Of a stretch of DNA of 25,791 bases, positions 1,190 through 25,736 are shown piece by piece (positions within the stretch are counted from its first letter, which is position 1; every line of letters begins with the position of its first letter). The notes below the pieces were generated by a model. The model ran no database searches and had not been told where the DNA came from. It worked only from the letters and a program-made list of their open reading frames with translations. The stretch covers positions 1-25,791 of the IMG/VR virus record IMGVR_UViG_3300042384_001106; one strand, 5' to 3'. The translations under genes and the position numbers were made by a program. The stretch is from a virus.

Positions 1190-2356
1190 TTATACAATAC
1201 CTGAAATACTATCAAGTTCATCACGAGTTAATGTGTCGCTACCATATCTTGCAACAACTTCGTTCTCTAATGTTGTATCAAATTCACCAGTCGTTGGTAA
1301 TCCTAATACTTGTTGTAATGCTGTAATTTCTTTATCACCACCAAGATAATCTTTACATCCTTTTTTGAATGGTCCATTTGGTGAACAATTTTTATAGACG
1401 ATAGGTTTTATTTCATCTTTACCACCACCAGGCACTCTAGGTGTTTCAGTATCATCATCGTCTTCACTAGTTTCATCCCACGGATCAAGTAAATCTTCAA
1501 CATAACCTTGTACTTTAGCCCAGTTTCTCCACAACCAATAACCCGCTAATGTACCACCACCTAAAATCCAAAACCATTTATTACCAATTACCCATTTTCC
1601 TAAATTTTTGACAAATCGTACAACACCATTTGTTTTAAGAAATAATTTAACAGTACTTGGTGATGAATCTTTTATTTTTGCTAGTTCTAATTTACGTTCA
1701 TCAACTAATTTTTTATTTTCAGCGATTTTAATATCTTGTCCTAAAATTTCCGCTTCTTTCACTTTTTTTGCGGCTTCCACTTCTTTCAATTTTAATATCT
1801 CATCAGCACTCGCCAAGTCATCTAACGTTTGTTGGACACGCGTAGTATTTGATTTAGAATCACGATACGCTGTTGCCAATCTTTGTGCGTCCTTCTTATC
1901 AAGCCCTTGTTTCAATAGTTCATTTTTAGCCTCTGTTGGTGTCATTTTACCATATTTACTAATAAATGAATCACTTTTAACAATATCTTTAGCCAACTCA
2001 ATTCTTATCGCTTTATTCGGCGTTGATTTGAATACCGCCCAATTAAATCTAGCTAACTCTTTTTCGGTAATTGTACCTCTTTTAGCAGCACCAACCACAT
2101 CTTGAAATGTTCGTAGTTCTTTACCTGCTTTATCAAAAAGTTTACCACCTTTAAGTTCGTTCATAAACTTCGCGTCCTTCATTAATAACGTTAATTCTTT
2201 AACAACTGCACCATCTTTACTAAAGGCTTTAAGGACATCACTATAAAGTGTTCTTTGTTCTAATATCGTTGTATTTTCAGATAACGTCATATCCATATTG
2301 TAATTTGATAACAACATAATTCTTTGGATATCTTCTAGTATTAATTTCTTTTCCAT
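1190..2356 (-). CDS. Leader-tagged, membrane-anchored protein with coiled coil and C-terminal peptidoglycan-binding-like domain
   Basis: 388 residues. The leader MEKKLILEDIQRIMLL is followed by candidate cleavage sites at TLSE-N (about 24-28) and TILE-Q (about 30-34). Residues 40-180 look helical. Residues 183-229 are rich in K, E and A and look like a coiled coil. A membrane segment with many aromatic residues and glycines lies at about 256-276. An acidic linker (298-304, run of D and E) precedes a C-terminal module at about 334-371 with the pattern GC...EITALQQVLGL..TGEFDTTLENEV, which matches the general shape of a PG_binding_1 repeat. The layout suggests a protein that crosses or anchors in a membrane and touches cell wall, such as an ejected or structural phage protein. 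No catalytic wall-hydrolase motif is visible. It sits 3 bases after the gene at 2360. Confidence 0.85.
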   Translation of the reverse strand: MEKKLILEDIQRIMLLSNYNMDMTLSENTTILEQRTLYSDVLKAFSKDGAVVKELTLLMKDAKFMNELKGGKLFDKAGKELRTFQDVVGAAKRGTITEKELARFNWAVFKSTPNKAIRIELAKDIVKSDSFISKYGKMTPTEAKNELLKQGLDKKDAQRLATAYRDSKSNTTRVQQTLDDLASADEILKLKEVEAAKKVKEAEILGQDIKIAENKKLVDERKLELAKIKDSSPSTVKLFLKTNGVVRFVKNLGKWVIGNKWFWILGGGTLAGYWLWRNWAKVQGYVEDLLDPWDETSEDDDDTETPRVPGGGKDEIKPIVYKNCSPNGPFKKGCKDYLGGDKEITALQQVLGLPTTGEFDTTLENEVVARYGSDTLTRDELDSISGIV

Positions 2357-2359
2357 AAT

Positions 2360-3610
2360 TTATATAAATTCTGAGTAATCAGCCTTTGTATTACCACCCG
2401 TAAGACTTTCAATATCTTTGGTCGCTAAGTCTGATGGTTTATTTTTTTCTTGATAATTTTTATATGTGTGTGCGGCAGTACCAATACCACCAACAACAAC
2501 CGCTGTTTTCGCCCCAGCCTTTAATGTTTTAAATGATAATAATTTCGCTAAGGTTTCACCTAAATATTTAAAAAATCCACCCATTTTTGATAAAATACCT
2601 TTAAACCAAGTACCAATCTTACCACTACCTAATCTACTTGATGCTTTTTCCATTTGTGTTGCGGCTTTAGGTATTGCTTCAGCACCAGCCTGAACAACCT
2701 TTGTTGCTGCAGGTGATTTTGCGATTTTTTGTGCCGCGGCCTCAATAGTTCTAGCACCAGCGGTTGCGGTTTTGATTGCGACACGACCGGCTTTTGCGGC
2801 AACCCCAGCGAAAACCATACCCATAACATCAACAACAAAAAACAACGCTCGTAACCAAGTCGGATCATCTGTTTCGTAATCACCAGTTGTAAATTCATAT
2901 ATGTCTAATGCAACAACTATCGCCCAAACGATAAATTGTGCAACCTTACCAACACCACTTACAATCAATATAGTATCAATAATAAGTCCTGCTTCACTAT
3001 AGACAGCCTGTCTAATTTTTCTTGCAACATATAATGTTCCTTTCTTTAATAAGTTTATGATTTCTTGAACATCACCACTTAACACTGCCCCACCAATTTT
3101 TTTAGCACCTTGCCAAACGTCTTTACCAAAATCAGTTATTCCTTTTTTTGTACTTTGTACAAAATCGGATCCCCAATCTTTAGCACCTTGCCAAACGTCA
3201 CCTAACATTGATTCATTAATCAATATTTCTTTAATAACGTTTTTGTGTTGTGTTAAATCAAGTTTACCTTCTGTTAGAAGAAACTTACTGAAAGTGTTTG
3301 CTGCGTGTTCTTTAATTGTTTCATTTAGGTTTGATGTTCTATATGTATGTTCTAAAAATACAACTAAATTGGAGACATCTTCCCAGATATTTCCATAACT
3401 TTTTTTCTCATTTAAATCAAATAACTCATCTAAGAAAATAACATATCTCTCATCAGGTGATAACCAATCTGTAATAATAACATTGTCACTATTTTTTGAA
3501 TCATCAAGATTAACACTTTCTTTTAAGTATTGTTTCTTTGTTGCGGTTTTGTGCATCTCAAGAATCCTACTTATTTCAGTATTGTCAATATGGTATAATT
3601 TTTTTTTCAT
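2360..3610 (-). CDS. Leader-tagged membrane-active protein
   Basis: 416 residues, no family recognised. The leader MKKKLYHIDNTEISRILEMH contains the ILEMHK string also approximated in the 4178-4726 protein (ILDQHK), and YLKE-S at about 28-32 is a candidate cleavage site. Residues 138-170 hold a tandem repeat of DVWQGAK (139-145 and 164-170), seen in the DNA as a repeated 18-base stretch. Strong hydrophobic segments at about 207-238 and 251-275 are followed by an Ala- and Lys-rich amphipathic region (268-320) and another hydrophobic stretch near 366-382. The hydrophobic core followed by Ala/Lys helices resembles residues 89-170 of the protein at 18457-20238, so the two may share a membrane-insertion role. 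It overlaps the upstream gene by 4 bases, so translational coupling is likely. Confidence 0.85.
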   Translation of the reverse strand: MKKKLYHIDNTEISRILEMHKTATKKQYLKESVNLDDSKNSDNVIITDWLSPDERYVIFLDELFDLNEKKSYGNIWEDVSNLVVFLEHTYRTSNLNETIKEHAANTFSKFLLTEGKLDLTQHKNVIKEILINESMLGDVWQGAKDWGSDFVQSTKKGITDFGKDVWQGAKKIGGAVLSGDVQEIINLLKKGTLYVARKIRQAVYSEAGLIIDTILIVSGVGKVAQFIVWAIVVALDIYEFTTGDYETDDPTWLRALFFVVDVMGMVFAGVAAKAGRVAIKTATAGARTIEAAAQKIAKSPAATKVVQAGAEAIPKAATQMEKASSRLGSGKIGTWFKGILSKMGGFFKYLGETLAKLLSFKTLKAGAKTAVVVGGIGTAAHTYKNYQEKNKPSDLATKDIESLTGGNTKADYSEFI

Positions 3611-3840
3611 ATTAATGTATTCCCTTTACCTCTTGCGGTCGTATATAACGATTTCCAAGTTACTTTATCATCGATAGTATTTGCTAAACCTCTAGTTAAA
3701 CCTGTTTCCCATTTTGTAACAGTAGGATAACCACCCTCACCACCAGATGGTGCTGCGTCGTCTTGTTCTCCTAATTCACTGTTATTTGATTTAAATGTGA
3801 ATTTTTCCATAAAACCGATTAATTCGTCAACGCTATACAT
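3607..3840 (-). CDS. Small Gly-rich hypothetical protein, first gene of the 88-3840 unit
   Basis: 77 residues. The N-terminal 24 residues form a likely helix ending in SELGE-Q, another [IL]-x-E-Q site, followed by a Gly- and Ser-rich segment and the strings YPTVTKWETGLTRG and NTIDDKVTW. I recall similar YPxVTKWExGxTRG strings in hypothetical phage proteins but cannot name the function. It heads the operon and has a TATTTAT box 12 bases upstream of its ATG. Its stop overlaps the start of the membrane protein gene at 2360-3610. Confidence 0.8.
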   Translation of the reverse strand: MYSVDELIGFMEKFTFKSNNSELGEQDDAAPSGGEGGYPTVTKWETGLTRGLANTIDDKVTWKSLYTTARGKGNTLI

Positions 3841-3852
3841 ATTCTTTTATTT

Positions 3853-3859: not shown

Positions 3860-3869
3860 TTGTAAAGTA

Positions 3870-5059: not shown

Positions 5060-5067
5060 TATCGTAA

Positions 5068-5074
5068 TATTTAT
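5068..5074 (+). promoter_or_regulatory. TATTTAT box for the gene starting at 5079
   Basis: AATATTTATTTATATG; 4 bases to the ATG. With the box at 5053 it forms a divergent promoter pair in a 30-base gap. Confidence 0.6.
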
Positions 5075-5078
5075 TTAT

Positions 5079-5702
5079 ATGAAGATTATTATAACAGAAT
5101 CACAATATAAAAAAATATTGTTAGAAAATTCGTCAAATGAGGTTGAGAGTAAGTTTAAAGAGATGTCTGAATTCTTTAAAAAAGTTAAAAATGATTTAAA
5201 AAAAGAGTTAAGTTTAGATTTTGAATTTTCATTAACTTGGGGTTTAACAATTGCAGGTTTAGCAATGCCAATAATGAGTTACCTACAAGGGAAATACGAA
5301 GGATTAACCTCAAGTGATATTTCATTATTGACAGCGGGGATAGTATTTACATTCTATTTTGCGAATCAAAAAAATCTAAAGTTAATTATTGCTGAATTAA
5401 AAAAACGTGGATTAAAAGACGTTTATGACGATATGATCCAAAAAACTAAAGAGTTTAAAAAGGTTTTTATTAAATTTATTGAAAGTTTTGCGGTACCCAC
5501 AACATCTGTTATAAATGTCTTGGCTTTTACACTCTTAATTCCAGTATTACCTGAGTTATTTAATTTTATTATGGGTAATCCAACAAACTTATCTATTAAA
5601 GAATTAGTTATTAGGGTTGCGGCTTACGTACCAATAAAATACTTTGTTGTAACACTAAAAAATCTAATTGCGTTAATGTTAAAACGATTTAATGGGGAAT
5701 AA
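5079..5702 (+). CDS. Leader-tagged multi-pass membrane protein
   Basis: 207 residues from the ATG at 5079. A longer reading from 5007 would cross the divergent gene and its promoter, and the leader begins exactly at 5079. The leader MKIIITESQYKKILLE-N belongs to the M-K-I-I-I-T-E-x-Q class, with a candidate cut after LLE (residue 16). A charged helix (21-46) precedes hydrophobic segments at about 51-70, 79-95, 141-166 and 174-199, so three or four membrane passes are likely. The family is not recognised. A tagged protein with membrane passes could be ejected with the DNA and insert into the host membrane; this is an inference. It converges on the gene ending at 5703 with no spacer. Confidence 0.85.
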   Translation: MKIIITESQYKKILLENSSNEVESKFKEMSEFFKKVKNDLKKELSLDFEFSLTWGLTIAGLAMPIMSYLQGKYEGLTSSDISLLTAGIVFTFYFANQKNLKLIIAELKKRGLKDVYDDMIQKTKEFKKVFIKFIESFAVPTTSVINVLAFTLLIPVLPELFNFIMGNPTNLSIKELVIRVAAYVPIKYFVVTLKNLIALMLKRFNGE

Positions 5703-6293
5703 TTATTTTTTATAATTTAATAATTTAGAAATAACGTCATTAACCTCATCCACACTCAATTTATGTACATCTTCGTGTGTGTCAAACCATTCTTTAACCA
5801 CAACCTCAAATGGTCGTTTAGTTAGTTTTGACAATCGTTTAAAACCAAATACTTGCGCATCAATTTCGTGTGGTTGTGTATAGTATTTATACGGATTTTC
5901 TTCTTCTGGAACATTAATATCAAATAAATTTCTATATTTTTGATCAATATGTCTAATTTCGTGACCAATCACCTCATTTAGTTCACCAATTAATTTAAAA
6001 GTAATGTTGTTTTTTGTATTTGGGTTATATGTGATAACAACTTCAATAACATCCTCGTTACCCCATAACCAAGCATCAAGTTTAAAACTATCTAACGACT
6101 CATCTTCAACTAAATTTAATTCAATTGTTAAGTCGTGGTTAAAATCTAAAAAATTATAAAAATCTTCATTATCAAGATAATTGGGTAAATAATACTCACC
6201 TTCATCCTCACTTTTAAACACTGTTATAATATCTCTTACTAATGTTCTAATAACATTTCTTCGTTTTTTATTTTCCAATAATAAATTTCCCAT
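5703..6293 (-). CDS. Predicted zinc-metalloprotease-like protein with short leader
   Basis: 196 residues from the ATG at 6293. I prefer this start to the in-frame ATG at 6308 because a TATTTAT box ends 4 bases before it and the 6308 start would fall upstream of that box. Residues 111-115 are HEIRH, the HExxH zinc signature, within GELNEVIGHEIRHIDQ. Downstream, PHEIDAQ (141-147) supplies a Glu that could be the third zinc ligand, as in gluzincin-like folds. The N-terminus MGNLLLE-N contains an [IL]-x-E site. The substrate is unknown. Possible roles are processing of host or phage proteins, or a virion-packaged protease. Catalytic competence is inferred from the motif only. Confidence 0.85.
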   Translation of the reverse strand: MGNLLLENKKRRNVIRTLVRDIITVFKSEDEGEYYLPNYLDNEDFYNFLDFNHDLTIELNLVEDESLDSFKLDAWLWGNEDVIEVVITYNPNTKNNITFKLIGELNEVIGHEIRHIDQKYRNLFDINVPEEENPYKYYTQPHEIDAQVFGFKRLSKLTKRPFEVVVKEWFDTHEDVHKLSVDEVNDVISKLLNYKK

Positions 6294-6297
6294 ATCA

Positions 6298-6304
6298 ATA
6301 AATA
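6298..6304 (-). promoter_or_regulatory. TATTTAT box that decides the start at 6293
   Basis: GATATTTATTGATATGG on the minus strand; 4 bases to the ATG at 6293. It lies inside the longer reading that starts at 6308. Confidence 0.6.
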
Positions 6305-6357
6305 TCATATTTGACTATAAAACAAAATATAGTTATTATTTTAATAAAAAACAAAAT

Positions 6358-7977: not shown

Positions 7978-8592
7978 CTACCATTTGTTCTTAGATACAA
8001 TCCCAAGTGACTTAGCATATCTACCCACATTACACGACCAGTATCCTGCGGTTGTTCTGTCTTTTTTCTGGTCACATTTATGTCTAGCCCTAAATGATTT
8101 TGCGGCTTTTTTGTTAGCGTTTCTAACTCTTAAATTTGGGTCACCAAATGTTACTTTTTTTATTGTTCCTCTAGGTGTTTTAACGTAAACAGCAAATTTC
8201 TTAGACCCACCTGGTGTTCTAAAAGGTTTATTTAGTTTGACATCCCTACCTCTATGTTTTGCCTCATTCAATTGTTCATCAATTTCAAATGGTACGTCTA
8301 ACCAGATCTTTCTACCATCTTCAAGTATTACTGATTTACCTAAATCACTTTCAATAATCCAAAGATCACGATTAGGGACTCTAATCTGATCATTAAAATA
8401 CAACTCTCTAACTTCATTTATTAAACTAAAATAAGAATCAGAATAAACTCTAAAGATAGTTTCAGAAAGATTAATATTATTATCAATATGATATTTTAAA
8501 TTATCCGATATTCCAACATTTTCTAATAATGTTAATTTTGGGCTAAGTTCTTCCTTTATAACTCTTTTAATAATATTTTCTAAAATTCTCAT
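7978..8592 (-). CDS. Tagged protein with basic C-terminal domain found in T4-like phages
   Basis: 204 residues. The leader MRILENIIKRVIKE-E has the same RVIKE end as the large tag family. A middle region (30-105) leads to EQLNE-AKHRG (107-115), a second [IL]-x-E site. Cutting there would free a strongly basic domain of about 94 residues: KLNKPFRTPGGSKKF (119-133), VTFGDPNLRVRN (147-158), and RARHKCDQ...TTAGYWSC (168-187) with two conserved Cys. I recall this C-terminal block from T4-like phages of marine bacteria, where its function is unknown; a DNA- or capsid-associated role would suit its charge. It is the best single pointer to a T4-like virus in this window. Confidence 0.87.
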   Translation of the reverse strand: MRILENIIKRVIKEELSPKLTLLENVGISDNLKYHIDNNINLSETIFRVYSDSYFSLINEVRELYFNDQIRVPNRDLWIIESDLGKSVILEDGRKIWLDVPFEIDEQLNEAKHRGRDVKLNKPFRTPGGSKKFAVYVKTPRGTIKKVTFGDPNLRVRNANKKAAKSFRARHKCDQKKDRTTAGYWSCNVGRYAKSLGIVSKNKW

Positions 8593-8659: not shown

Positions 8660-9190
8660 ATGAAAAAATATAGATTAAACGAGAGTGATATTAATAGAAT
8701 TATTGGTAAAGTTTTATCCGAACAATCAGAAAAAAAATCACCTAAAAAAACAGATGTACAACCAAGATGTTTACCTGAAAACGTTGTACCCTTAACAGAA
8801 ATTGTTGGGTTTGCAGATGAATATATTAAATATGGTCCAGGTGTGACAAAAAGAAGAAGTGGTGTTAACTCAATGGTTGATACTTTAGGTATATTAAATA
8901 ATGTAAGATTATTTAAAGATATAAAAGATGGTGGATCACATTTGGCTTACGAAATGATGAATGGTTTAAATCGTTTTAGAAATAAACACTATTATGACGA
9001 AACAACAAATGAATGTCGTAAGGCGATGGATAAAGTTACTGAGTTATATAAGGAAAATGAGCATGGTACAGAATTAGTTAAAGATATTGAACGTGTTTTA
9101 AATCTACAAACAAAGGATGACGAATTTACACCATCACCAAGAACAAAAGAATATTTAAAACAATGTATTAATTTAGTCAAAGGACAATAA
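8660..9190 (+). CDS. Leader-tagged hypothetical protein
   Basis: 176 residues. It carries the class-A leader MKKYRLNESDINRIIGKVLS ending in E-Q (cut predicted after residue 21). The body (residues 22-176) is helical and polar with no membrane segment: a charged KKSPKKTD linker, then GFADEYIKYGPGVTKRRSG and a C-terminal helix. Two or three Cys (36, 117 and 170 by my count) are present. The family is not recognised. A terminator follows at 9229. Confidence 0.85.
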   Translation: MKKYRLNESDINRIIGKVLSEQSEKKSPKKTDVQPRCLPENVVPLTEIVGFADEYIKYGPGVTKRRSGVNSMVDTLGILNNVRLFKDIKDGGSHLAYEMMNGLNRFRNKHYYDETTNECRKAMDKVTELYKENEHGTELVKDIERVLNLQTKDDEFTPSPRTKEYLKQCINLVKGQ

Positions 9191-9286: not shown

Positions 9287-9520
9287 ATGATGAAGAATTA
9301 TTGGACTCCAACTCCAAAAAAATGGAGAAGGTTAGGAGACTCTTTATTGGCTGTAGCAACAGTTATTGCAATTGGTGGTATTTGGCAATATGACAGTCTA
9401 AAGGAAATTTTCAGTACTGGCGAATTAAAAATTATGATTGTATCCTCAATCGTTTTTGGTGTAGTCGGTAAATTTCTGACAAATTTCTTTAAAGACGACA
9501 CAAAAGAGTCACAAGATTAA
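9287..9520 (+). CDS. Small two-helix membrane protein, holin-like
   Basis: 77 residues from the ATG pair at 9287. The longer reading from 9218 runs through the terminator and promoter, so it is rejected. The N-terminus MMKNYWTPTPKKWRRLGDS is positively charged, followed by membrane helices at about 17-34 and 48-66 and a charged tail (KDDTKESQD). This size, topology and charge pattern fit a class II holin, and I recall similar WTPTPKKWRKLGD openings in small phage membrane proteins. No endolysin lies next to it in this window. It is a single-gene unit bounded by terminators on both sides. Confidence 0.8.
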   Translation: MMKNYWTPTPKKWRRLGDSLLAVATVIAIGGIWQYDSLKEIFSTGELKIMIVSSIVFGVVGKFLTNFFKDDTKESQD

Positions 9521-9539
9521 CATTTTATTAAATTTTACT

Positions 9540-9569
9540 CCCCTCCATAAGAGGGGTTTTATTTTTTTT
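9540..9569 (+). terminator. Intrinsic terminator after the holin-like gene
   Basis: CCCCTC (9540-9545) pairs with GAGGGG (9551-9556) around a 5-base loop, followed by TTTTATTTTTTTT. Confidence 0.85.
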
Positions 9570-9571
9570 AC

Positions 9572-9579
9572 TATATTTG
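9572..9579 (+). promoter_or_regulatory. Host-type -7 element (TAnnTTTG) before a 51-residue gene
   Basis: TATATTTG matches the Bacteroidota -7 consensus TAnnTTTG. Only 4 bases separate it from the ATG at 9584. No TTG is seen 19 bases upstream, where the terminator T-run lies. It has almost the same sequence and spacing as the phage TATATTTAT boxes. Confidence 0.5.
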
Positions 9580-9583
9580 TACT

Positions 9584-9739
9584 ATGAACGATAAAAAAAC
9601 TAAAAAAACAATAGAACAAAAGAAGTTTGAACGAACATATGTGATGACTGATTGTATTATGATTTGGAAATATGATAATTATAAAACAAATACAGGACCA
9701 TATGAGGTTGAAATTAAACAATTAAAGAAAACCGTTTAA
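9584..9739 (+). CDS. 51-residue hypothetical protein
   Basis: ATG at 9584, stop TAA at 9737-9739. The product is highly charged at its N-terminus (MNDKKTKKTIEQKKFERTY), with a central MTDCIMIWKYDNYKTNTGPY and a C-terminal VEIKQLKKTV. It has no membrane segment and no leader tag. Support comes from an open frame filling the space between the terminator at 9540 and the gene at 9757, and from the TAnnTTTG element directly in front. The family is not recognised. The basic, aromatic-containing sequence could be a small regulatory or nucleic-acid-binding protein. Confidence 0.65.
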   Translation: MNDKKTKKTIEQKKFERTYVMTDCIMIWKYDNYKTNTGPYEVEIKQLKKTV

Positions 9740-9743
9740 TCAT

Positions 9744-9751
9744 TATATTTA
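9744..9751 (+). promoter_or_regulatory. TATATTTA box for the gene at 9757
   Basis: TATATTTAATATTATG; 5 bases to the ATG. It is intermediate between the phage TATTTAT box and the host TAnnTTTG element. Confidence 0.45.
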
Positions 9752-9756
9752 ATATT

Positions 9757-10200
9757 ATGAAGTTACTACCTGTTTTAAGTGAAATTATTAATAGAGAAAC
9801 CCTTATTTCGGCACTAAAAACGATGGATTTTAGTGAAAAAGAGGCTCAAAAAGAGTTAAAATACCACATAAATAGGTTAAAAAACCTACCAGAAATCGTT
9901 AAAGGTTACCGAATTTTACGTGTTGATGATGAAAAAGATATCAATTTAAAGGAAATTGGGTCACATTTTGGTGAAAATAAGGATGATTTGTTAAGAAATC
10001 ACTCATATTTGACTGGTTTTGGTGAAAAATACTTCATAATTACGGTAAAAATCCCTAAAAATGAAATAAATGTGTCTGAAACCATAGAAAATAACATACT
10101 TTACCCTCACGAAAGAGAAATTACAGTCAAAAACAACGGAAAAAACGTAAAAATCGTTAGAATTGAAGAAATTGACACTGAAAACGACTATTTTTTCTGA
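9757..10200 (+). CDS. Tagged hypothetical protein, possibly ADP-ribosyltransferase-like
   Basis: 147 residues. The N-terminus MKLLPVLSE-IINRE contains an [IL]-x-E site. The rest is a compact alpha/beta sequence with GYRILRV (50-56), EIGSHF (66-71), NHSYLTGFGEKYFIITVKIP (81-100) and YPHEREITVKNNG (116-128). An Arg early, a central S-H/Y-containing stretch and a late E-x-E (here EREI) are spaced as in small ADP-ribosyltransferases, and T4-like phages package such enzymes (Alt). The match is by motif spacing only and is weak. The 3' end overlaps the convergent gene at 10188 by 13 bases. Confidence 0.75.
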   Translation: MKLLPVLSEIINRETLISALKTMDFSEKEAQKELKYHINRLKNLPEIVKGYRILRVDDEKDINLKEIGSHFGENKDDLLRNHSYLTGFGEKYFIITVKIPKNEINVSETIENNILYPHEREITVKNNGKNVKIVRIEEIDTENDYFF

Positions 10201-10406
10201 TATTTATCCATAATTTTCTTAATTCTTTCCATTTCTTGATTAAAATGAGAAGAATCAAAGGTATTCATTGTATTTTTTTGGATATTTTTAAGATTTATGA
10301 CCATATCAAAGATTTTTTTACCATATTTCTTCCACCATAGGTAAAAAACCACTGACATACCTATTAAAATTACCATAAACACACATAAAACGATTAAAAC
10401 TGCCAT
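10188..10406 (-). CDS. Small single-pass membrane protein
   Basis: 72 residues. One strong membrane helix at about 2-24 (MAVLIVLCVFMVILIGMSVVF) is followed by LWWKKYGKK and a charged helical cytoplasmic tail (FDSSHFNQEMERIKKIMDKYQKK). The layout is N-out, C-in by the positive-inside rule. It could be a lysis accessory, superinfection-exclusion or regulatory membrane protein; nothing decides between these. The start region has no TATTTAT box. Confidence 0.75.
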   Translation of the reverse strand: MAVLIVLCVFMVILIGMSVVFYLWWKKYGKKIFDMVINLKNIQKNTMNTFDSSHFNQEMERIKKIMDKYQKK

Positions 10407-10458
10407 AATTATTACTTTTTTATTAAAAAATAGGTAAAAATTGAGTAAATGTCAACTT

Positions 10459-11022
10459 TTAACGTATTATTACAATATGTCCGTGGTCATTTCTCTTTTC
10501 ATCGTTGTTTTTTACGTTAAATTTAAGATTCCAGATATAAATACCATCCGAACATATAGTATTATTGTATGTTCCATCCCAATTTACGTTCAAATCCTCT
10601 GTTTCCCAAATTAATTGACCCCATCTGTTATAAATAGTGAACGAAAAACCATCAATATCTATCCCATCATTAAAAATAGGTCTAAATGTTTGATTAAATT
10701 CGTTATTATCTGGTGTAAATGCGTTTGGAATCCAATAAATGACCCCAATACAGGGTGTTATTGTGACATTGTACGACTCTTCAGTCCTACATAGTACATT
10801 TTCCCTAACTAAATCAATATTATACACACCTGGTTGATTAAAACTGTATACTAAGGTGTCTCCAATGTATGTTAATCCGTTAACTGACCATATATTTATA
10901 CCAATACTATTAGTTTCTGAGAAATAACTAACAGTTTTTAACTCACCAGGACATAATTCAAAGGTTTGTTGCCCTAATAAGGTAAATGAACAAAAGAATA
11001 ATATAAAAATAATGAGTTTCAT
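10459..11022 (-). CDS. Secreted protein with type IX secretion C-terminal sorting domain (gliding-motility CTD type)
   Basis: 187 residues. A signal peptide spans about 1-17 (KLIIFILFFCSFTLLG, cut before QQ, typical of Flavobacteriia). A short beta-rich domain follows (20-92, with Cys pairs at 24, 78 and 91). Residues 97-187 match the gliding motility-associated C-terminal domain (type B T9SS sorting signal): YWIPNAFTPDNNEFNQTF (96-113), FTIYNRWGQLIWET (128-141), NWDGTYNN (147-154), SDGIYIWNLKF (158-168), ending in a beta strand GHIVIIR. The protein should cross the inner membrane by Sec and the outer membrane by the host type IX system. It is last in the operon and its ATG shares a base with the upstream stop (TAATG). 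This is a host-type signal and implies a Bacteroidota host. Confidence 0.9.
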   Translation of the reverse strand: MKLIIFILFFCSFTLLGQQTFELCPGELKTVSYFSETNSIGINIWSVNGLTYIGDTLVYSFNQPGVYNIDLVRENVLCRTEESYNVTITPCIGVIYWIPNAFTPDNNEFNQTFRPIFNDGIDIDGFSFTIYNRWGQLIWETEDLNVNWDGTYNNTICSDGIYIWNLKFNVKNNDEKRNDHGHIVIIR

Positions 11023-11600: not shown

Positions 11601-11602
11601 AA

Positions 11603-12196: not shown

Positions 12197-12201
12197 CATA
12201 T

Positions 12202-16437: not shown

Positions 16438-17202
16438 ATGAAAAAATACCTTATTACTGAAGATCAAATGACACGAATAATGTTAAAAGAATCTACAAAC
16501 ATAAAAAAAGGGTTAGCACTAAAGGTTCAAGATGAGAATGGTGAATTTTATAAATCAATAATTAAAGAGTTTAAATCTGAAGACGACTTTAATAACTGGA
16601 AAGATAATTTAAAATCAAATGTGGTATTAATTGGTGATATGGATATTGATGATGACGTTTCAGAAACCATTAACGAATCTACTTACGACAAAATGCCGAA
16701 GGAAAAAAAGGATATTGGGTTTTATATGTTATTTAAAACATTAAAAGGTCGTTATCCGTTTATTATTGATATTATACCAAAACTTGAGTCATTAAAAAAA
16801 TATGGTACTTTATTAAGTTTTGATATTGTTTTTGATTTATATAAATTTTATAAATTTACAAACACACATTATGATAGTGATTATCAACATAAAGACCATC
16901 TATTAGATTTGTTGAATGATAAAAATCATTATTTATTTACATATACCGATTCAGTTTTTTATGATGAAATAAATAAACTTGACTATGATTTGAGAGATTT
17001 TATGGATAGATATTATAAAACAATTAACCCTAATATGCGTTACTCAAAATTTGATCTTTGGGATGAAGAAGATTTTAGAGAAAGTAGTAATTTTGAATTT
17101 TACTTAAAATGGGCTGAAGATAAAGATTCACCAACACTTGGTATTTCCAAATGGATTCCAGTTGTTGATCTTGATAAGATAAAAGAACTTAATATTAATT
17201 AA
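16438..17202 (+). CDS. Leader-tagged hypothetical protein
   Basis: 254 residues. The leader MKKYLITEDQMTRIMLKE-S is intermediate between the two classes (MKK-Y start and the ITEDQ core), with a cut predicted after residue 18. Residues 21-64 look like a small domain (GLALKVQDENGEFYKSIIKE...NVVLIGDMDIDD). TINE-S (about 73-77) is a second [IL]-x-E site. The remaining 170 residues are rich in D, Y, F and K (DIVFDLYKFYKFTNTHYDSD, FMDRYYKTINPNMRYSKFD), with no membrane segment. Family not recognised. The stop overlaps the convergent gene at 17199 by 4 bases. Confidence 0.85.
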   Translation: MKKYLITEDQMTRIMLKESTNIKKGLALKVQDENGEFYKSIIKEFKSEDDFNNWKDNLKSNVVLIGDMDIDDDVSETINESTYDKMPKEKKDIGFYMLFKTLKGRYPFIIDIIPKLESLKKYGTLLSFDIVFDLYKFYKFTNTHYDSDYQHKDHLLDLLNDKNHYLFTYTDSVFYDEINKLDYDLRDFMDRYYKTINPNMRYSKFDLWDEEDFRESSNFEFYLKWAEDKDSPTLGISKWIPVVDLDKIKELNIN

Positions 17203-17773: not shown

Positions 17774-18004
17774 TTAATCTAAAACCTTACCACCATATTT
17801 TTGTATTATGAATTTAATTATATCTGTAACATCACTGACGGTTTCATCTTCAGTTTTTAACCCTAAATTTTTTAATAAAAAAACGGCCTCATGTCTTAAC
17901 GATTTTTGAGTGTGTGCCATCATTTCTGTTGTTTCAGATTCGGTTATAATTTTGTTAACAATTCTTGTTACATCAGACTCTGTTAGTTTTATTATTCTTT
18001 TCAT
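17774..18004 (-). CDS. Short leader-tagged protein
   Basis: 76 residues from the ATG at 18004. A longer reading from 18058 would translate a non-coding repeat shared with the region upstream of 20238, so it is rejected. Class-A leader MKRIIKLTESDVTRIVNKII followed by TE-S (cut predicted after residue 22). The mature part would be only 54 residues: AHTQKSLRHEAVFLLKNLGL and a C-terminal helix DVTDIIKFIIQKYGGKVLD. No family recognised. Confidence 0.85.
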   Translation of the reverse strand: MKRIIKLTESDVTRIVNKIITESETTEMMAHTQKSLRHEAVFLLKNLGLKTEDETVSDVTDIIKFIIQKYGGKVLD

Positions 18005-18456: not shown

Positions 18457-20238
18457 TTACATTTTGTTTAAATTATTTTGTAAATCGGGTTCAAGGTTTT
18501 TACCCTTTAATTTTTCCGCCAATTTTTTAGTTGTTAATCTATCCATTTTTCCTACGGATGTTGTTAAACCATTATCCTTTTGGAATTTCTCTAAAGCAGT
18601 TTTTGTTTCTGGACCAAATTTACCATCAGCACCTGCATTAGGTAATTGATATCCTAATGCTAGTAATGCGTTTTGGATATTTTGGACGTTTGTATTTACT
18701 GTGTAATCACTTTCACCTTCATACTCCGCAACTTCACCTTGTAAAAAAGTTTCTGTTTCTGATGATGTTTGTTTGGGATCTAAATCTGGAATAGAATCTA
18801 ACTTATTATAATCAATATTTGATCCGTCAGCTAATAACATATCACTAAATCTTTTAACAAACAACGGAACTGTTACTCCCCACCCTCTTCTCAACCAAGG
18901 TGCACCCACAGCCTTATTAATGAAGGTTTCAACAGGAACCATTGTTGTGAATTTCCTACCGTTTTTCTCAAATAATATCTTAACGCCACTGTCCGTTATT
19001 TCCGAAATTGTTCCCTTTAAAGGACCTTTAGGACCCATATATTTATACGTATAACCTTTAGCAAAGCCCGCTTTTCTTAAAACTTTTGCTCCTTGTGAAA
19101 TTTTTGGTATTCTACTAAAAAAGTTTTTTGCTGCTTGTATCGCAACAGGAGTAATGGTATTTTTACCAACTTGTTTACCAACTTGTTTACCTAACCCACT
19201 CAGTCCCTCACGGTTCAAAACCGATATTAAATCTTTAACATACTTTGAGTCTATATCTGTCATTTGTATTGCTTTTTTTCCATTATATCCTTTTATTGGA
19301 ATCCAGCCTTTACTACTATTATAAAATATCATTCTCACATTATTAGGTAATACCGCCGAAAACGCTTCTTGACCTTGACTGTGTGTTGTTTTATTAACAA
19401 CTTTTATTCCATCTTTGGTAAAGTTAACATTTTTTAATGTTGCGTTTATTGTTTCAGGAGTTTCCTTGAAACCATATTTACCAAGAGTTCTATCAATATC
19501 AAACATTTTTTTAAATTGATCGGAACTAACATTTACTGAATTTTCAACACCCTTCTTACCGGTTTTACCTGTAATTGTTGATAATATTTGTTTAATCCTT
19601 GATGTAAACTTATCAATAAATCCAGTAATTTTACCTCTAAATCTACCGAGAATCTTTTTTGCCAAAGTTGATTGTAATGCAGATTTTATTTTACTTGGTA
19701 ATTTAAGTAATATTGTATCCAAAATTCCACCAACAATTTTTAAACCCTTAACAACAATTTTTGACGCCAAACCAACACCAGTCTTAACTGCTCGTTTAAG
19801 TGGTATTGCAATTGCTTGTAATGGTCCAGGCAATATAACAAAAGCGAATGTTATTGCCGCCATAATATATAGTGAATCTCTTTCTTTTTCAGATTTAAAT
19901 TGTGCTTCAATAATATAACTAAGTGCATTTAAAACATCAATAACAGCACCAGAACCTGGGATTACAAAATCCATACCAGCAGATAAAAGATCCGCACCAG
20001 TATGTAATATATCACTCAAACTCCAATTTTCATTAATTAAGACTTCGTTCCCATTTATTGTTGAGTATGCTTTACCTTCATAAACAACATGTTTACCATC
20101 AGATGTGAATTTGCAAGTCATTAATTTTTCATATGGTGATTGTAAATCACCTATTTCAGTAATAAATTTATGTTCAGTGATAATTTTATTTATCGTTGAT
20201 ACCAAATCCAATTCTGTTAATCTAATTATTTTTTTCAT
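18457..20238 (-). CDS. Large leader-tagged protein with membrane region and C-terminal peptidoglycan-binding domain
   Basis: 593 residues from the ATG at 20238; a longer reading from 20289 only translates repeat copy B. The leader MKKIIRLTELDLVSTINKII is followed by TE-H (cut predicted after residue 22). A beta-like segment (41-68) leads to hydrophobic segments at about 89-111 (DFVIPGSGAVIDVLNALSYI) and 122-146 (SLYIMAAITFAFVILPGPLQ), then Lys-rich amphipathic helices (150-240). The middle (270-470) is mixed. An acidic linker rich in E and S precedes a clear PG_binding_1 module at about 520-578 (IQNALLALGYQLPNAGADGK, FGPETKTALEKFQKDNG). Membrane insertion plus wall binding suggests a role in DNA delivery or envelope passage. 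No lytic motif is visible. Confidence 0.88.
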   Translation of the reverse strand: MKKIIRLTELDLVSTINKIITEHKFITEIGDLQSPYEKLMTCKFTSDGKHVVYEGKAYSTINGNEVLINENWSLSDILHTGADLLSAGMDFVIPGSGAVIDVLNALSYIIEAQFKSEKERDSLYIMAAITFAFVILPGPLQAIAIPLKRAVKTGVGLASKIVVKGLKIVGGILDTILLKLPSKIKSALQSTLAKKILGRFRGKITGFIDKFTSRIKQILSTITGKTGKKGVENSVNVSSDQFKKMFDIDRTLGKYGFKETPETINATLKNVNFTKDGIKVVNKTTHSQGQEAFSAVLPNNVRMIFYNSSKGWIPIKGYNGKKAIQMTDIDSKYVKDLISVLNREGLSGLGKQVGKQVGKNTITPVAIQAAKNFFSRIPKISQGAKVLRKAGFAKGYTYKYMGPKGPLKGTISEITDSGVKILFEKNGRKFTTMVPVETFINKAVGAPWLRRGWGVTVPLFVKRFSDMLLADGSNIDYNKLDSIPDLDPKQTSSETETFLQGEVAEYEGESDYTVNTNVQNIQNALLALGYQLPNAGADGKFGPETKTALEKFQKDNGLTTSVGKMDRLTTKKLAEKLKGKNLEPDLQNNLNKM

Positions 20239-20244: not shown

Positions 20245-20307
20245 TTTATATATAAATATATAACATATTTTTTTTGTTAAAACGTCCAATCAGAAAGGAA
20301 GAATTTT
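20245..20307 (-). repeat. Upstream repeat, copy B
   Basis: The partner of 18012-18076. The 18-base core is at 20286-20303, the T-run at 20268-20275 and the TATTTAT box at 20252. It spans the whole gap between the gene start at 20238 and the stop at 20306. Confidence 0.85.
20252..20258 (-). promoter_or_regulatory. TATTTAT box for the gene starting at 20238
   Basis: TTATATATTTATATATAAAA on the minus strand, 13 bases before the ATG, inside repeat copy B. Confidence 0.55.
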
Positions 20308-20671
20308 ATAAAAATAGACTTTTCTTTTTTTCCCAAGCCCTATGTATCCAATCATTATATCTTTTTTCAAGAAATGGTTTTATTTGCCAATATACACCCA
20401 TAACTTTATCTCGGCTGGTCTCAATGTATTCATCATCCTCATCAACATCAATCTCATCACTTTTAATATTCATAATAAATTCATATAGAAGGTTATTGAT
20501 GACATGTTCTAAGAAGTCTTCAAATTTATTCATAGGCCGGGTATTTGCAATATAATAGACCAACTCACCATCCAAAAATTCTAGGTCACTCCGAGTTATC
20601 CTTCTTTTAAGAGAAAGTGGAAGTTCACCAAATAATCTTTCATATTGAGATTCTGATATAATAAATTTCAT
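20306..20671 (-). CDS. Leader-tagged hypothetical protein
   Basis: 121 residues. The class-B leader MKFIISESQYERLFGELPLS lacks a perfect [IL]-x-E site at the usual place (LFGE instead), so it is the least regular member. The body is charged and helical: SLKRRITRSDLEFLDGELVY, DFLEHVINNLLYEFIMNIKS, an acidic DEIDVDEDDEYIE stretch, and a basic aromatic C-terminus (FLEKRYNDWIHRAWEKKKSL). Family not recognised. A TATTTAT box stands 5 bases before the ATG. Confidence 0.83.
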   Translation of the reverse strand: MKFIISESQYERLFGELPLSLKRRITRSDLEFLDGELVYYIANTRPMNKFEDFLEHVINNLLYEFIMNIKSDEIDVDEDDEYIETSRDKVMGVYWQIKPFLEKRYNDWIHRAWEKKKSLFL

Positions 20672-20736: not shown

Positions 20737-21207
20737 TTAATATTGTTCATCAATTTTATCGTCAAATATGGTTATAACATCTTTAATTTTCAGTTTGGTT
20801 AACCCAACTCTGTCAAGGGTTCGTTCCATTGGTGAAAACCCAAATGCTGTTGTGAAATATTCGGTATCATCTTGGTTTTGGTATAAGACACTATCATCAC
20901 CAATAGTGAGTAGATACATTGGACCAAACCTATTGAGAAACCTAAGTAATTTATTACGGTCAACACCACCAAATCTAGTGAAAGTATCCGGAACATCATA
21001 AGTTGATGTTACCAGTTTAATTTCATTTGGATCAAATTTACGGTCAATTAAAACGGTTTCAAAATTATCTTTACCAATCACTTTAACCAAGTTTTTAACC
21101 GACCCAACGGTGGATACCGCAACATCAAAACCGTGAAGGTCAATCATATATAATAATTTATCAACCAAGGTTTCCTTTTGTTCTTCTGTAATAATAATTT
21201 TTTTCAT
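20737..21207 (-). CDS. Leader-tagged member of the three-copy paralog family
   Basis: 156 residues. The leader MKKIIITEEQKETLVDK is class B with an extra K. The conserved core LLYMIDLHGFDVAVSTVGSV and KNLVKVIGKDNFETV matches residues 17-52 of the protein at 25338-25736 closely (LMKLINRSEFSVGVKAVGGL, KNLIKILYDGDYNSFV) and the protein at 15659-16084 more loosely. The second half (RFGGVDRNKLLRFLNRFGPM, DTEYFTTAFGFSPMERTLDR) is specific. Function unknown. Its ATG overlaps the upstream stop (ATGA), so it is coupled to 21204-21395 and has no box of its own. Confidence 0.85.
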   Translation of the reverse strand: MKKIIITEEQKETLVDKLLYMIDLHGFDVAVSTVGSVKNLVKVIGKDNFETVLIDRKFDPNEIKLVTSTYDVPDTFTRFGGVDRNKLLRFLNRFGPMYLLTIGDDSVLYQNQDDTEYFTTAFGFSPMERTLDRVGLTKLKIKDVITIFDDKIDEQY

Positions 21208-21395
21208 AATAGTCTAAATCTTAATAGTGGTTTACCATTAATTGTAATATCCCCCTTATCATTTTTACCAATGGTTTTAACAACAATCTTTTTGTTTTTA
21301 AATTTACCACCCATAATCACATCCCCAACTTTAATGTCAAGTTTAATCATTTCTGATATGTATTTGTATTGTTGTTCCGTTATAATGATTTTCAT
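21204..21395 (-). CDS. Very short leader-tagged beta-rich protein
   Basis: 63 residues. Class-B leader MKIIITEQQYKYISE-M (cut predicted after residue 15) followed by a 48-residue, beta-rich, Gly- and Lys-rich domain: DIKVGDVIMGGKFKNKKIVV and KTIGKNDKGDITINGKPLLR. The IKVGDVI..GKFKNKKIVVKTIG..DKG pattern suggests a small SH3/KOW-like barrel. It is first of a two-gene unit. Its TATTTAT box lies inside the 3' end of the upstream gene, 1 base away. Confidence 0.8.
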   Translation of the reverse strand: MKIIITEQQYKYISEMIKLDIKVGDVIMGGKFKNKKIVVKTIGKNDKGDITINGKPLLRFRLL

Positions 21396-21396: not shown

Positions 21397-21786
21397 TTAT
21401 AATAAATATCTAATATAGTTATGTTCTAATCTCCTTAAAATAAAAATTTTGAGGTCTTTTGATACACTATCAAAATCAACACTATAATACCCATTATAAC
21501 CTGACGGAACATCAAATGAGTCATCATAATTTATCTCAACACCAAATTGCTCTTGTGTGTAAAGAGCAAAAATAATTTTTCTTGTATCAAACCAAAGTTC
21601 CTGAACATAAACAATATCATTATCCCTATATAATTTCAGTCCATCTGGTACTCTATCCTCAAGCTCTTTAACTAATTTTTTTGGTAACTCCCAGTGAAGA
21701 ATATTGGTCTCGGTAACTTCCTCTTTAAGTACTCGTTTAACAATTCTTGTTAAATCTGATTCGGTTAGTTTTACAATTTTTTTCAT
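21397..21786 (-). CDS. Leader-tagged hypothetical protein
   Basis: 129 residues from the ATG at 21786; an upstream in-frame TTG at 21792 lies in the promoter box and is rejected. Class-A leader MKKIVKLTESDLTRIVKRVL followed by KE-E (cut predicted after residue 22). The body looks beta-rich: LYRDNDIVYVQELWFDTRKI, IFALYTQEQFGVEINYDDSF, NGYYSVDFDSVSKDLKIFIL, ending in RRLEHNYIRYLL. Family not recognised. Confidence 0.85.
   Translation of the reverse strand: MKKIVKLTESDLTRIVKRVLKEEVTETNILHWELPKKLVKELEDRVPDGLKLYRDNDIVYVQELWFDTRKIIFALYTQEQFGVEINYDDSFDVPSGYNGYYSVDFDSVSKDLKIFILRRLEHNYIRYLL
21402..21408 (-). promoter_or_regulatory. TATTTAT box for the gene starting at 21395
   Basis: TAGATATTTATTATAATATG on the minus strand; 6 bases to the ATG. 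It is embedded in the last codons of the gene at 21397-21786. Confidence 0.55.
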
Positions 21787-21901: not shown

Positions 21902-22156
21902 TTAGAATCTATTGTTTCCGTAATATTTTGTTTTACTTTTATATCTTGTTTTAGTTTGACAACCTTTCTTTTTTCTCTTATATTTTCCTCCGTTCATTCC
22001 TGAAGGTGTTGCAACATCATTAAAACAGGCCATGTCTTCTTTTGCGATGTCGTTAACATTTACAATAACTTCGTCGTCATCTTCCTCCATCTCTATAATG
22101 GTTCTTTTAATAATCCTAGTTAAATCGGATTCTGTTAGTCTAATTATTCTTTTCAT
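21902..22156 (-). CDS. Short leader-tagged protein with basic tail
   Basis: 84 residues. Class-A leader MKRIIRLTESDLTRIIKRTI followed by IE-M (cut predicted after residue 22). An acidic stretch (EEDDDEVIVNVNDIAKED) leads to MACFNDVATPSGMNGG and a strongly basic tail (KYKRKKKGCQTKTRYKSKTK, then YYGNNRF). The basic tail could bind DNA or RNA, as in packaged internal proteins; this is an inference. Two Cys. Confidence 0.85.
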   Translation of the reverse strand: MKRIIRLTESDLTRIIKRTIIEMEEDDDEVIVNVNDIAKEDMACFNDVATPSGMNGGKYKRKKKGCQTKTRYKSKTKYYGNNRF

Positions 22157-22269: not shown

Positions 22270-22647
22270 TTACTCAACAAACTCAAGATTTAGTAATGGT
22301 TCCCAATTTTCTATAATATATTCCAAAACCTCCTCATACTCCTCTTCATCAATTTCTTCCCCATAATGTTCACCATCAACATAAACAACATCATTATCAA
22401 TATCTTCCGGATGAAGACGAATAAAGTTGTCCATAAAATAACCTGAGTCGCAACCAATTATTTTATAAACCTCAATATAATCTTGATACACATTAACATA
22501 TTCAAGATCAATTAAGTTATTCTTGGTAAGTAATGACATTAATTTTCGGACATTTTCATTCGGTGGAGAGGTCAATCTATTTTCTTTAATTACTCGTTTA
22601 ACAATTCTTGTTAAATCAGATTCTGTTAATCTTATTACTTTTTTCAT
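22270..22647 (-). CDS. Leader-tagged acidic protein
   Basis: 125 residues. The most typical class-A leader: MKKVIRLTESDLTRIVKRVI followed by KE-N (cut predicted after residue 22). The body contains LTSPPNENVRKLMSLLTKNN, LIDLEYVNVYQDYIEVYKII, CDSGYFMDNF and a long acidic C-terminus (HPEDIDNDVVYVDGEHYGEE, IDEEEYEEVLEYIIENWEPL). No membrane segment. Family not recognised. Its TATTTAT box is 19 bases upstream. Confidence 0.87.
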   Translation of the reverse strand: MKKVIRLTESDLTRIVKRVIKENRLTSPPNENVRKLMSLLTKNNLIDLEYVNVYQDYIEVYKIIGCDSGYFMDNFIRLHPEDIDNDVVYVDGEHYGEEIDEEEYEEVLEYIIENWEPLLNLEFVE

Positions 22648-23055: not shown

Positions 23056-23124
23056 GAATGGGATAACAAAGTTCTATGGTTCAAGACGTTTACATAATAG
23101 AAAAAAAGATGTATTATTAATGAT

Positions 23125-25218: not shown

Positions 25219-25268
25219 AATGTAAATGTAATTATAAAAAATTAAAATATCAAATTTTAACCAAAAAA

Positions 25269-25324
25269 TATCAAAAATTTTTTTTGAGGAATTGACCCTT
25301 ATAAAAAGAGGGGGTCGTGTTTAT
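25269..25324. repeat. Direct repeat, right copy
   Basis: The partner of 23000-23055, in the same orientation. In this copy GACCC and GGGTC can pair around the TATAAAAAGAG block; the left copy cannot form that stem, so the hairpin is not conserved. Confidence 0.75.
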
Positions 25325-25337
25325 AGGGAAATAAAAA

Positions 25338-25736
25338 TTAATTCTCTTTTAAATACCTATTAATAACATAGTTTGAATATTGTTTCCATATGGAAGAAAT
25401 ATATTTATCGTCCACACCATATTTCTCCCGCATAACACTATTAAAACAACTAGGTCTAAAACTAAAAACAGGGTTATATCTCTCTGAATGATCTAAAAAG
25501 ATAGAGATGTTACAATCAAATAAAAAATAATGATGTCTAACTTTATGTGTGTTGTAAATTAAATCATCAGACACATATTTAACAAATGAATTATAATCAC
25601 CATCATATAAAATTTTAATCAAGTTCTTTAAACCACCAACCGCTTTAACCCCAACACTAAATTCGGAACGATTAATAAGTTTCATTAAATTATCTTTTAA
25701 TTTGTTATGTTGGTCTTCAGTAATAATAATTTTCAT
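25338..25736 (-). CDS. Leader-tagged member of the three-copy paralog family
   Basis: 132 residues. Class-B leader MKIIITEDQHNKLKDN. The core NLMKLINRSEFSVGVKAVGG and LKNLIKILYDGDYNSFVKYV aligns with the protein at 20737-21207. The second half (YNTHKVRHHYFLFDCNISIF, RYNPVFSFRPSCFNSVMREK, YVINRYLKEN) is distinct, with three Cys. Function unknown. A TATTTAT box stands 4 bases before the ATG. No terminator is visible after the stop; the right direct repeat follows 13 bases downstream. Confidence 0.85.
   Translation of the reverse strand: MKIIITEDQHNKLKDNLMKLINRSEFSVGVKAVGGLKNLIKILYDGDYNSFVKYVSDDLIYNTHKVRHHYFLFDCNISIFLDHSERYNPVFSFRPSCFNSVMREKYGVDDKYISSIWKQYSNYVINRYLKEN

Follow-up and report, generated by a model that had tools for sequence, protein, structure and literature searches.

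We describe here a set of short N-terminal peptides, hereafter leaders, which begin many otherwise unrelated genes of a 25,791-base stretch of virus DNA (IMG/VR record IMGVR_UViG_3300042384_001106; the whole stretch is referred to as the window) and which are probably capsid-targeting propeptides comparable to those of phage T4. All bases of the window are found at positions 107,107-132,897 (reverse) of a larger IMG/VR record, G001 (296,330 bp), at 99.988% identity; the GC content is 0.30. The ends of G001 match: its first 120 bases recur at 296,157, close to the other end, as would be expected of a complete assembly that is circular or circularly permuted. Other records are given as G002, G003 and so on, and open reading frames (ORFs) of the window by their lower coordinate.

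The leaders are roughly 5-33 residues long, in most cases have a basic or amide-rich start and end in [ILV]-x-E, a more general form of the [IL]-x-E given in a first-pass annotation that had been made from the letters of the window and that proposed a shared leader on about 20 of its proteins. Every N-terminus listed there exists, with some starts revised: 17774 and 18457 begin at internal ATGs and not at an upstream TTG, and 15659 begins at 16084. Four related classes, A-D, were each expressed as a regular expression: MKK[IV]IRLTESDLTRIVKRVIKE (class A), MKIIITExQYxxLIKE (class B), ITEEEKxRILxMHxxAxxxxFLxE and kin (class C) and MNLQESIRRILREE (class D). The leaders of the window are as follows, a slash marking the end of the leader.

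22582-22647, minus strand: class A leader (22 codons) of ORF 22270-22647, MKKVIRLTESDLTRIVKRVIKE/N; a ATATTTAT-type motif lies 27 nucleotides (nt) upstream
22091-22156, minus strand: class A leader of ORF 21902-22156, ending TIIE/M; motif 25 nt upstream
21721-21786, minus strand: class A leader of ORF 21397-21786, ending VLKE/E; the homologous body G2_144204 has a 13-residue leader
20173-20238, minus strand: class A leader of ORF 18457-20238 (593 residues, C-terminal PG_binding_1), ending IITE/H
17939-18004, minus strand: class A leader of ORF 17774-18004, ending IITE/S
15590-15652, minus strand: class A-like leader of ORF 15110-15652, ending KIIE/Q, with Glu at residue 21
8660-8722, plus strand: class A leader of ORF 8660-9190, ending VLSE/Q; G004 and G005 orthologs have other leader sequences
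5079-5126, plus strand: class B leader of ORF 5079-5702, MKIIITESQYKKILLE/N; a class B-like start is kept in G4_5362 and G5_87631
16040-16084, minus strand: class B leader of ORF 15659-16084, MKIIITENQYNIIKE/N; G003 bodies homologous to it have class D leaders
20624-20671, minus strand: class B leader of ORF 20306-20671, MKFIISESQYERLFGE/L; the homologous body G5_55889 has a class D leader
21184-21207, minus strand: class B leader of ORF 20737-21207, IITE site only
21351-21395, minus strand: class B leader of ORF 21204-21395, MKIIITEQQYKYISE/M
25716-25736, minus strand: class B leader of ORF 25338-25736, IITE site; residue 15 is Asp, not Glu
16438-16491, plus strand: intermediate leader of ORF 16438-17202, MKKYLITEDQMTRIMLKE/S
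8551-8592, minus strand: class D leader of ORF 7978-8592, MRILENIIKRVIKE/E
3518-3610, minus strand: class C leader of ORF 2360-3610, ...ISRILEMHKTATKKQYLKE/S; similar to G5_68820 over the initial 37 residues
1090-1173, minus strand: class C leader of ORF 88-1173, ...IKRMLSLLESKMGDVKPLINE/Q; the start of G2_148783 is similar
6273-6308, minus strand: leader of ORF 5703-6308 (HEIRH motif), MIFIDMGNLLLE/N
3766-3840, minus strand: probable leader of ORF 3607-3840, ...SELGE/Q; [LI]GE is kept in G4_3215 and G5_90611
2258-2356, minus strand: possible, weak leader of ORF 1190-2356, ...TTILE/Q; likeness to the start of G5_92138 by eye only
9757-9783, plus strand: possible, weak short leader of ORF 9757-10200, MKLLPVLSE/I
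15039-15068, minus strand: possible short leader of ORF 13797-15068, MDLKKLLLSE/G; broad regular expression only

Leader classes and their excess over chance

Using the strict class definitions, leaders were found on 44 of 361 ORFs in G001 (A 12, B 17, C 5, D 10). Comparable counts were obtained for G005 (40/371), G003 (21/319), G002 (22/367) and G004 (26/272), and the rumen-type record G026 has 9/517; the ORF caller was simple and accepted ATG starts only, making all such counts approximate. Strict-class leaders thus stand on 6-12% of the called ORFs in four large records of a T4-like clade of jumbo phages, as against about 0.3 matches per genome at shuffled N-termini and 1/1,066 and 2/1,267 at internal methionines of G001 and G005, although in G026 class C also matched at 6/1,719 internal methionines. 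With a profile of class A residues 1-16, G001 gave 12 sites and G005 gave 16; each of these coincides with the first residue of an ORF, and the reversed sequences of the two genomes gave no site at the same score. The leaders are therefore confirmed as real and in excess of chance. Broader expressions gave 48 (G001), 56 (G005), 33 (G003), 35 (G002), 37 (G004) and 16 (G026) ORFs, and 5 in the cultured Flavobacterium phage immuto (1.2 expected), on a background of 1.2-2.8 expected from shuffles and 41/7,510 internal methionines across the seven genomes. A broad D2 expression was kept out of the headline counts because its matches arise in shuffles too (about 1-3 per genome, with 4/1,066 at G001 internal methionines). 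In IMG/VR, 43 stretches carry a freshwater-type pattern and 51 a rumen-type pattern, these names being labels for two leader patterns and not sampling sites.

Not every detail of the first-pass annotation survived this comparison. The [KT]E said to follow the class A leader is found in 17774, 18457, 21397 and 22270, and not in 8660 (LSE) or in 15110 and 21902 (IIE). Among the leaders it regarded as looser, 7978 (class D) and 5703 are backed by homologs in which other leaders are joined at the same place, 88 and 2360 fit the third class and 3607 keeps [LI]-G-E in two homologs, whereas 13797 fits the broad expression only and 1190 and 9757 are weak; the 1190 body has no homolog at E 1e-3 among the compared genomes, and that of 9757 corresponds to the C-terminal portion of a longer protein of G004. 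Five untagged genes had been put forward as internal controls, and four of these (GuaC, cupin, methyltransferase and nuclease) indeed lack [ILV]xE in their first 40 residues, but FKBP has two. Such sites also occur in unclassed ORFs, two in 3870, one in 16084 and three in 18079.

Some other arrangements were seen. Two class D leaders stand in tandem at one N-terminus at G001 95,498-97,048 (L082; MNLQQTIRKILREE...NNLQETVRKVLREK). In 13797-15068 a second leader-like stretch, EEINRIKEMMGIVLNE/Q (EEINRIKEMMGIVLNEQ), lies inside the protein before a weak peptidoglycan-binding match and is possibly an internal cleavage site. Three successive genes at 10459-12199 of the window have ordinary secretion-signal-like N-termini (e.g., MKKLLVFLMIMISGIALSQ) and no leader.

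Conservation of the leader and exchange of the body

The end of the class A leader is sharply defined. A profile built from 25 leaders on residues 1-16 only, with residue 22 unused, retrieves 92 distinct leaders from 33 sources, many of them fetched by a DNA pattern which fixes residues 8-21, including Ile20, and leaves residue 22 free, and Glu22 is present in 98%. The information content is 3.66 bits at residue 22, followed by 1.36, 0.78, 0.52 and then about 0.4; conservation stops after Glu22. In G001 and G005 alone, 26 of 28 class A leaders have Glu22, and in the other two the Glu is displaced by a single residue, earlier or later. At residue 20, 25 of the 28 have Ile and 3 have Leu. The rumen-type class A leader has four additional residues and then a like ending (MKKIIRLTESDLHNIVKESVNRALNE).

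Among 24 class A leaders the nonsynonymous difference (pN) is 0.19 and the synonymous difference (pS) 0.54 (pN/pS 0.36), while codons 25-45 give a pN of 0.71 and a pS of 0.64, to which the leader pS is near. With amino acids held in this way against a much higher pS, it is the peptide and not the DNA which is conserved. This bears on whether the leader might be a regulatory or translation-start cassette, in which the start of the DNA or mRNA is conserved and the peptide is a by-product, as could be suggested by 17774 and 18457, the starts of which are 91% identical over 98 bp, showing that the start of a leader can be copied along with the region upstream of it. Given that synonymous sites are nearly randomised whilst the amino acids are kept, and that several head genes have the same upstream motif without the class A peptide, a cassette of this kind is very improbable.

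The upstream motif in question, ATATTTAT, was found within the 35 nt ahead of 68 G001 ORFs out of 361 (2.4 expected), and it or GTATTTAT stands 10-39 nt ahead of many genes of the leader, head and tail sets, an example in the window being 5067-5074. Taken as [AG]TATTTAT within 40 nt, it precedes 28/44 leader ORFs in G001 compared with 55/317 others (p 5e-10), and the association has the same sign in G005 (p 7e-6), G003 (9e-5), G002 (0.04), G026 (4e-4) and G004 (5e-6). In G001 it also precedes the terminase, portal, Peptidase_S77 and scaffold-like genes. Its distribution along G001 is uneven, with 10/21 ORFs at 150-173 kb (the head cluster) and 31/80 at 93.7-150 kb as against 1/44 at 44.9-66 kb (a leader gene) and 0/30 at 79.5-93.7 kb. 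The motif is a candidate late promoter. Some other G001 genes are preceded by TAnnTTTG, which we take to be Bacteroidota sigma-A-like, a candidate early promoter.

Behind the leaders the proteins are largely unrelated, as had been supposed: 107 leader proteins (58 from G001 and 49 from G005, 23 of the 107 added by eye) form 87 body clusters. At the level of BLAST there are 47 clusters among the 58 G001 proteins and 47 among the 49 of G005, with few common to both, and 20 Pfam families were matched at E 0.01 over 97 leader proteins, most in a single member. Ordinary paralogy, in which a single family has expanded and diverged past the first 22 residues, does account for one true family, a 12-member cluster in G001. 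As an explanation of the whole set it is scarcely credible, both because of the number of body clusters and because 29 of 56 inter-genome pairs with both leaders recognised differ in leader class, many of these pairs coming from the 12-member family.

Evidence for exchange comes from bodies found under several leaders. One head-cluster body follows MGNLTEKELDRIVNKIINE/APIDY, MVDKDLERLIRKIIKE/APIDY and MAKKLRTE/APMDF, the last of which has Arg two residues before Glu, so that the site is not always [ILV]xE. A body that is weakly DHH-like (E 0.004, 1 of 97 proteins) follows MKIIITESQYKQLIKE/SGIRD, MVMRKNLILE/SGLRD and MKSILKE/SGIRN, and a further swap is seen between MKKNLIITENQLEIIVNNLLLNE/AVGVP and MKDLIKKLLRE/AVGVP. 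In the window, the homologs of 5703 have leaders of 9 (G4_6410), 13 (G5_86652) and 5 residues (G2_191446, MLLNE), each ending at the matching Glu, and leaders are also swapped for 15659 and for 20306, with class D partners; G5_55889 has 18 further residues between its class D leader and the part common with 20306. The homologs of 8660 and 7978 keep leaders, of different sequence, and the 7978 homolog in immuto aligns from residue 22 on and is without a leader. Two candidate swaps seen in a small database, 18457 with G5_94419/95950 and 9757 with the class D protein G5_16546, did not hold in a larger one, the latter not at E 1e-3, and the argument for exchange is carried by the other swaps.

One partner was without a strict leader in 127 of 183 inter-genome pairs; among the matches listed, many such partners clearly begin with a leader of D type (e.g., MKELIRHIIKEE), and others match only in part and at a distance from the N-terminus. 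As the strict expressions miss many partner leaders, the junction was judged on reciprocal-best pairs matched on residues 41 onward, of which 76 had a recognised leader on at least one side and 713 had none. In the first 35 residues, Glu was aligned at a leader-end-like site in 73/76 leader pairs compared with 221/713 others, [ILV]xE was aligned on both sides in 68/76 compared with 140/713, and [ILV]xE was present on both sides with leader lengths at least two residues apart in 25/76 compared with 23/713. These proportions should be read with care, as the test is partly circular (the expressions require such a site on one side, and 38/76 were recognised on both) and a few pairs are poor, such as those of G3_124845, which are not leader proteins. 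Where [ILV]xE occurs at residues 7-29, its Glu was kept in 96/120 cases, compared with 95/169 at residue 46 or beyond.

The prohead protease, the capsid protein and probable capsid targeting

The head genes of the leader phages match T4-type gp20, gp21 and gp23 models. In G001 the terminase is T4-type, as is the portal (PF07230, E 4e-68), the gene for which (162,873-165,968; L086:2873-5965) is interrupted by an intein (PF14890, E 2e-16). A gp21-like prohead protease, which the first-pass annotation had suggested should be sought in the full genome and whose absence it would have taken as a refutation, is encoded by a Peptidase_S77 gene at 167,773-168,498 of G001 (241 residues, domain E 5e-23), with two genes between it and the gp23-type capsid gene; none was found inside the window, which covers only 25.8 kb. 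The His and Ser columns of T4 gp21, which we take to be its catalytic residues, are invariant in the aligned S77 proteins. The G001 capsid protein itself has SFLINE/ATG aligned with FLTE/AEIGG of T4 gp23, presumably the exact gp23 cut site, and the T4 record annotates gp21 as cleaving gp23. This Glu60 is invariant in 15 major capsid proteins and T4 gp23, with I, L or V always two residues before it.

Among 20 leader-bearing records S77 was found in 9, and among the 29 of a second set (6 of them repeated from the first) again in 9, which makes 18 of 43 distinct records. Seventeen of the 43 contain a full gp23 gene, and all 17 of these have S77, the records including near-duplicates (G012/G013, with identical protein scores, and G021/G025, with equal lengths and scores). 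The HK97-type S78 protease was sought as an alternative and was found in 0/29 records. With clade profiles, G024 and G033 gave partial matches to both S77 and the capsid gene, and in G021, G025 and G030 an insertion in the same open frame divides the S77 match into parts. The partial matches, including those to the capsid gene in G023, G027, G029 and G034, probably represent split or interrupted genes, and for the S77 insertions and partial capsid matches in the large rumen-type records inteins, introns or another genetic code are candidates. G004 (223 kb) has tail genes and no terminase, portal, S77 or capsid gene and, as head genes and S77 are absent while tail genes are kept, it is probably a fragment. 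G002 (268,739 bp) has two S77-capsid pairs (S77 at 31.3 and 233.5 kb, capsid at 34.2 and 237.2 kb), one of them immuto-like, with its strict leaders only beyond 121 kb; it is possibly a chimeric assembly.

A gene for bS21 lies on the opposite strand beside S77 in G002, G005, G006, G007, G012 and G013; together with a sub-cut-off match in G009 this makes 7 of the 10 records searched, and G001, G003 and G026 had no match. In G001 a class B leader gene (166,712-167,158) lies shortly upstream of S77, at about the bS21 position of G005 and other relatives. Freshwater Bacteroidetes jumbo phages encoding bS21 have been reported (PMC9723584), and the available part of that account does not mention leaders. 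The window phage very probably belongs to this group, from which G001, G003 and G026 differ in having no bS21 match, and as bS21 stands beside S77 in its relatives, as in the reported phages, the host is very probably a member of the Bacteroidota. No cultured member of the clade was found in the phage collection with the queries used, nor did the 22-residue leader or the 22270 protein match cultured phages by tblastn, to which low-complexity filtering of the short query may have contributed. For virion proteomics of immuto, the nearest cultured relative with a name, one paper on Baltic Flavobacterium phages was searched; it does not mention immuto and contains 'mass spectrometry' 0 times and 'proteom' once, in a reference.

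In T4, the internal proteins have N-terminal propeptides of 10-19 residues which target the prohead core and are removed by gp21, and for IPIII the first ten residues suffice for incorporation (both from the available text of PMC9026906). We consider that the leaders described here are capsid-targeting propeptides of a greatly expanded T4-like system, with a probability of roughly 0.78, and from the genes we infer packaging, cleavage and injection. The leader would dock the protein onto the prohead scaffold core, the S77 protease would cut after the terminal Glu, and the trimmed proteins would be trapped together with the DNA in the head and delivered by injection to the next host, most of them probably acting there in host takeover and counter-defence. 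Such steps would explain the docking part, the [ILV]-x-E end, the exchange of bodies, the shared upstream motif and the presence of a gp21-type protease. The T4-like reading offered in the first-pass annotation is thus supported by the protease, by leader swaps at a fixed Glu, by selection on the amino acids and by a motif common to head genes.

As in the T4 capsid-targeting sequence of IPI-III and Alt (MKTYQEFIAE in ipII and ipIII, NC_000866), a short N-terminal tag ending in Glu is joined to diverse small bodies in a phage with a gp21-family protease and a gp23-family capsid protein; here, however, there are four interchangeable classes, with class A fixed at 22 residues, and no homology of the leaders to those of T4 is claimed. 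The numbers also differ, with 21-44 strict (33-56 broad) tagged ORFs in G001, G002, G003 and G005, whereas T4 has three internal proteins and its relatives are reported to have at least 10 (PMC12373910, in part). The ejection proteins of phiKZ and SPN3US, with propeptides cut by gp175/gp245, offer a second comparison, these being jumbo phages in which a gp21-related protease cuts after Glu and many internal proteins are ejected (PMC9026906 and PMC10052503, from the text available). In those sources the phiKZ motif is [SA]-x-E, and of eight SPN3US N-terminal propeptides six are long (111-254 residues) and two have 20 and 24 residues. The short, uniform tags described here, ending in [ILV]-x-E, do not fit propeptides of the phiKZ type, and the head genes are T4-type.

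Two other functions need to be weighed. The leader could be a sorting signal unconnected with the prohead, for example an amphipathic membrane-docking helix or a signal for import into a phage compartment, with Glu kept for binding and not for cleavage; the short leaders with their basic start, on bodies that are mostly unknown proteins, would suit such a signal. We regard it as unlikely, since conservation falls directly after Glu22, the Glu junction is kept across leader lengths, and [ILV]xE matches the pro-domain site of the capsid protein itself. Alternatively, the leader could be a prohead-core tag without injection, the tagged proteins being assembly or core factors which are trimmed and stay as filler or are lost. 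Some tagged proteins are indeed encoded in the head cluster, G1_157237 adjoining the terminase gene, and T4 gp22 and gp67 persist as fragments in the head (PMC9026906, in part). The many body clusters of G001 and G005, few of which are shared, represent a turnover better suited to accessory effectors than to assembly factors, and this alternative too is quite unlikely.

There are several points which count against capsid targeting. The class A leader is longer than the T4 propeptides, some class B leaders are without a second [IL]xE, and the closest G002 homolog of 18457, as called, begins at body residue 40 without a recognised leader. Immuto has S77 yet strict leaders on 0/209 ORFs, so that S77 does not predict the leader, and the co-occurrence of leader and protease is not phylogenetically independent, as it involves two main clades and some near-duplicates. 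G023, G027, G029 and G034 have a partial capsid-gene match and no S77 match with the clade profiles, tagged genes also occur in Prevotella-type genomes, in none of which S77 was matched (5/5 searched), and the G001 capsid gene has no upstream motif within 40 nt.

Tagged genes beside transposases and a possible pool of delivered proteins

In a collection of bacterial and archaeal genomes (genome_contigs) the freshwater-type pattern had 0 matches and the rumen-type pattern 15, in Prevotella-type and other Bacteroidales metagenome-assembled genomes (MAGs), Segatella baroniae B14, Prevotella sp. MA2016 and two MAGs labelled Alphaproteobacteria and 'bacterium'. The 20 kb around five of these 15 matches was examined. 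In three (L260, L261 and L263) a lone tagged gene is convergent with an IS1595-family transposase gene (PF12762, E 6e-45 in L261), the stop codons meeting or lying within about 3 bases; the transposase of L262 occupies two frames, and L259 shows no more than a fragment of one. Perfect 25-bp terminal inverted repeats were found in L261 and L262, and in L261, a Prevotella MAG, they bound a 2.5-kb element (9448-11980) with an apparent 8-bp target duplication. An IS1595-type transposase convergent with a single tagged gene was also seen in L240, L146 and L163, the body being different each time, and a diverged copy of the transposase is present in G026. Across the two collections, a regular expression for the transposase was matched in 6 of 60 leader-bearing loci, two of the six being IMG/VR loci; most tagged genes are thus not beside one.

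As the five Prevotella-type genomes gave no S77 match, a tagged gene outside a phage need not bring its own protease, and the tag may serve hitchhiking. We suggest, very tentatively and with more doubt than belief, that the tag is a label used beyond the phage, by which the cargo of IS1595-type transposons in Prevotella-type chromosomes is loaded into the heads of jumbo phages that infect the cell, so as to reach new cells or else to poison or modify the phage. If so, proteins delivered by capsids would form one pool, exchanged among phage, transposon and host.

The principle of such targeting is already known; what is new is the number of tagged genes, the four interchangeable classes, their spread and the link with transposons. 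No description of the leaders was found in the literature, including searches for the strings RLTESDL, IRLTESD, KLTESDL and LTESDLHRI, within a scope that excluded most subscription papers and all preprints. If the leaders are indeed capsid-targeting propeptides, the tag would provide a simple filter by which many unknown genes of jumbo phages become candidate injected effectors, with roles in anti-restriction, takeover or counter-defence, and each genome would hold some seven to fifteen times as many candidates as the three internal proteins of T4. Tags of varied length with matching proteases would then be available as a means of filling large capsids with chosen proteins, and in view of the link with transposons delivery by capsids would be one way in which mobile elements might exchange material.

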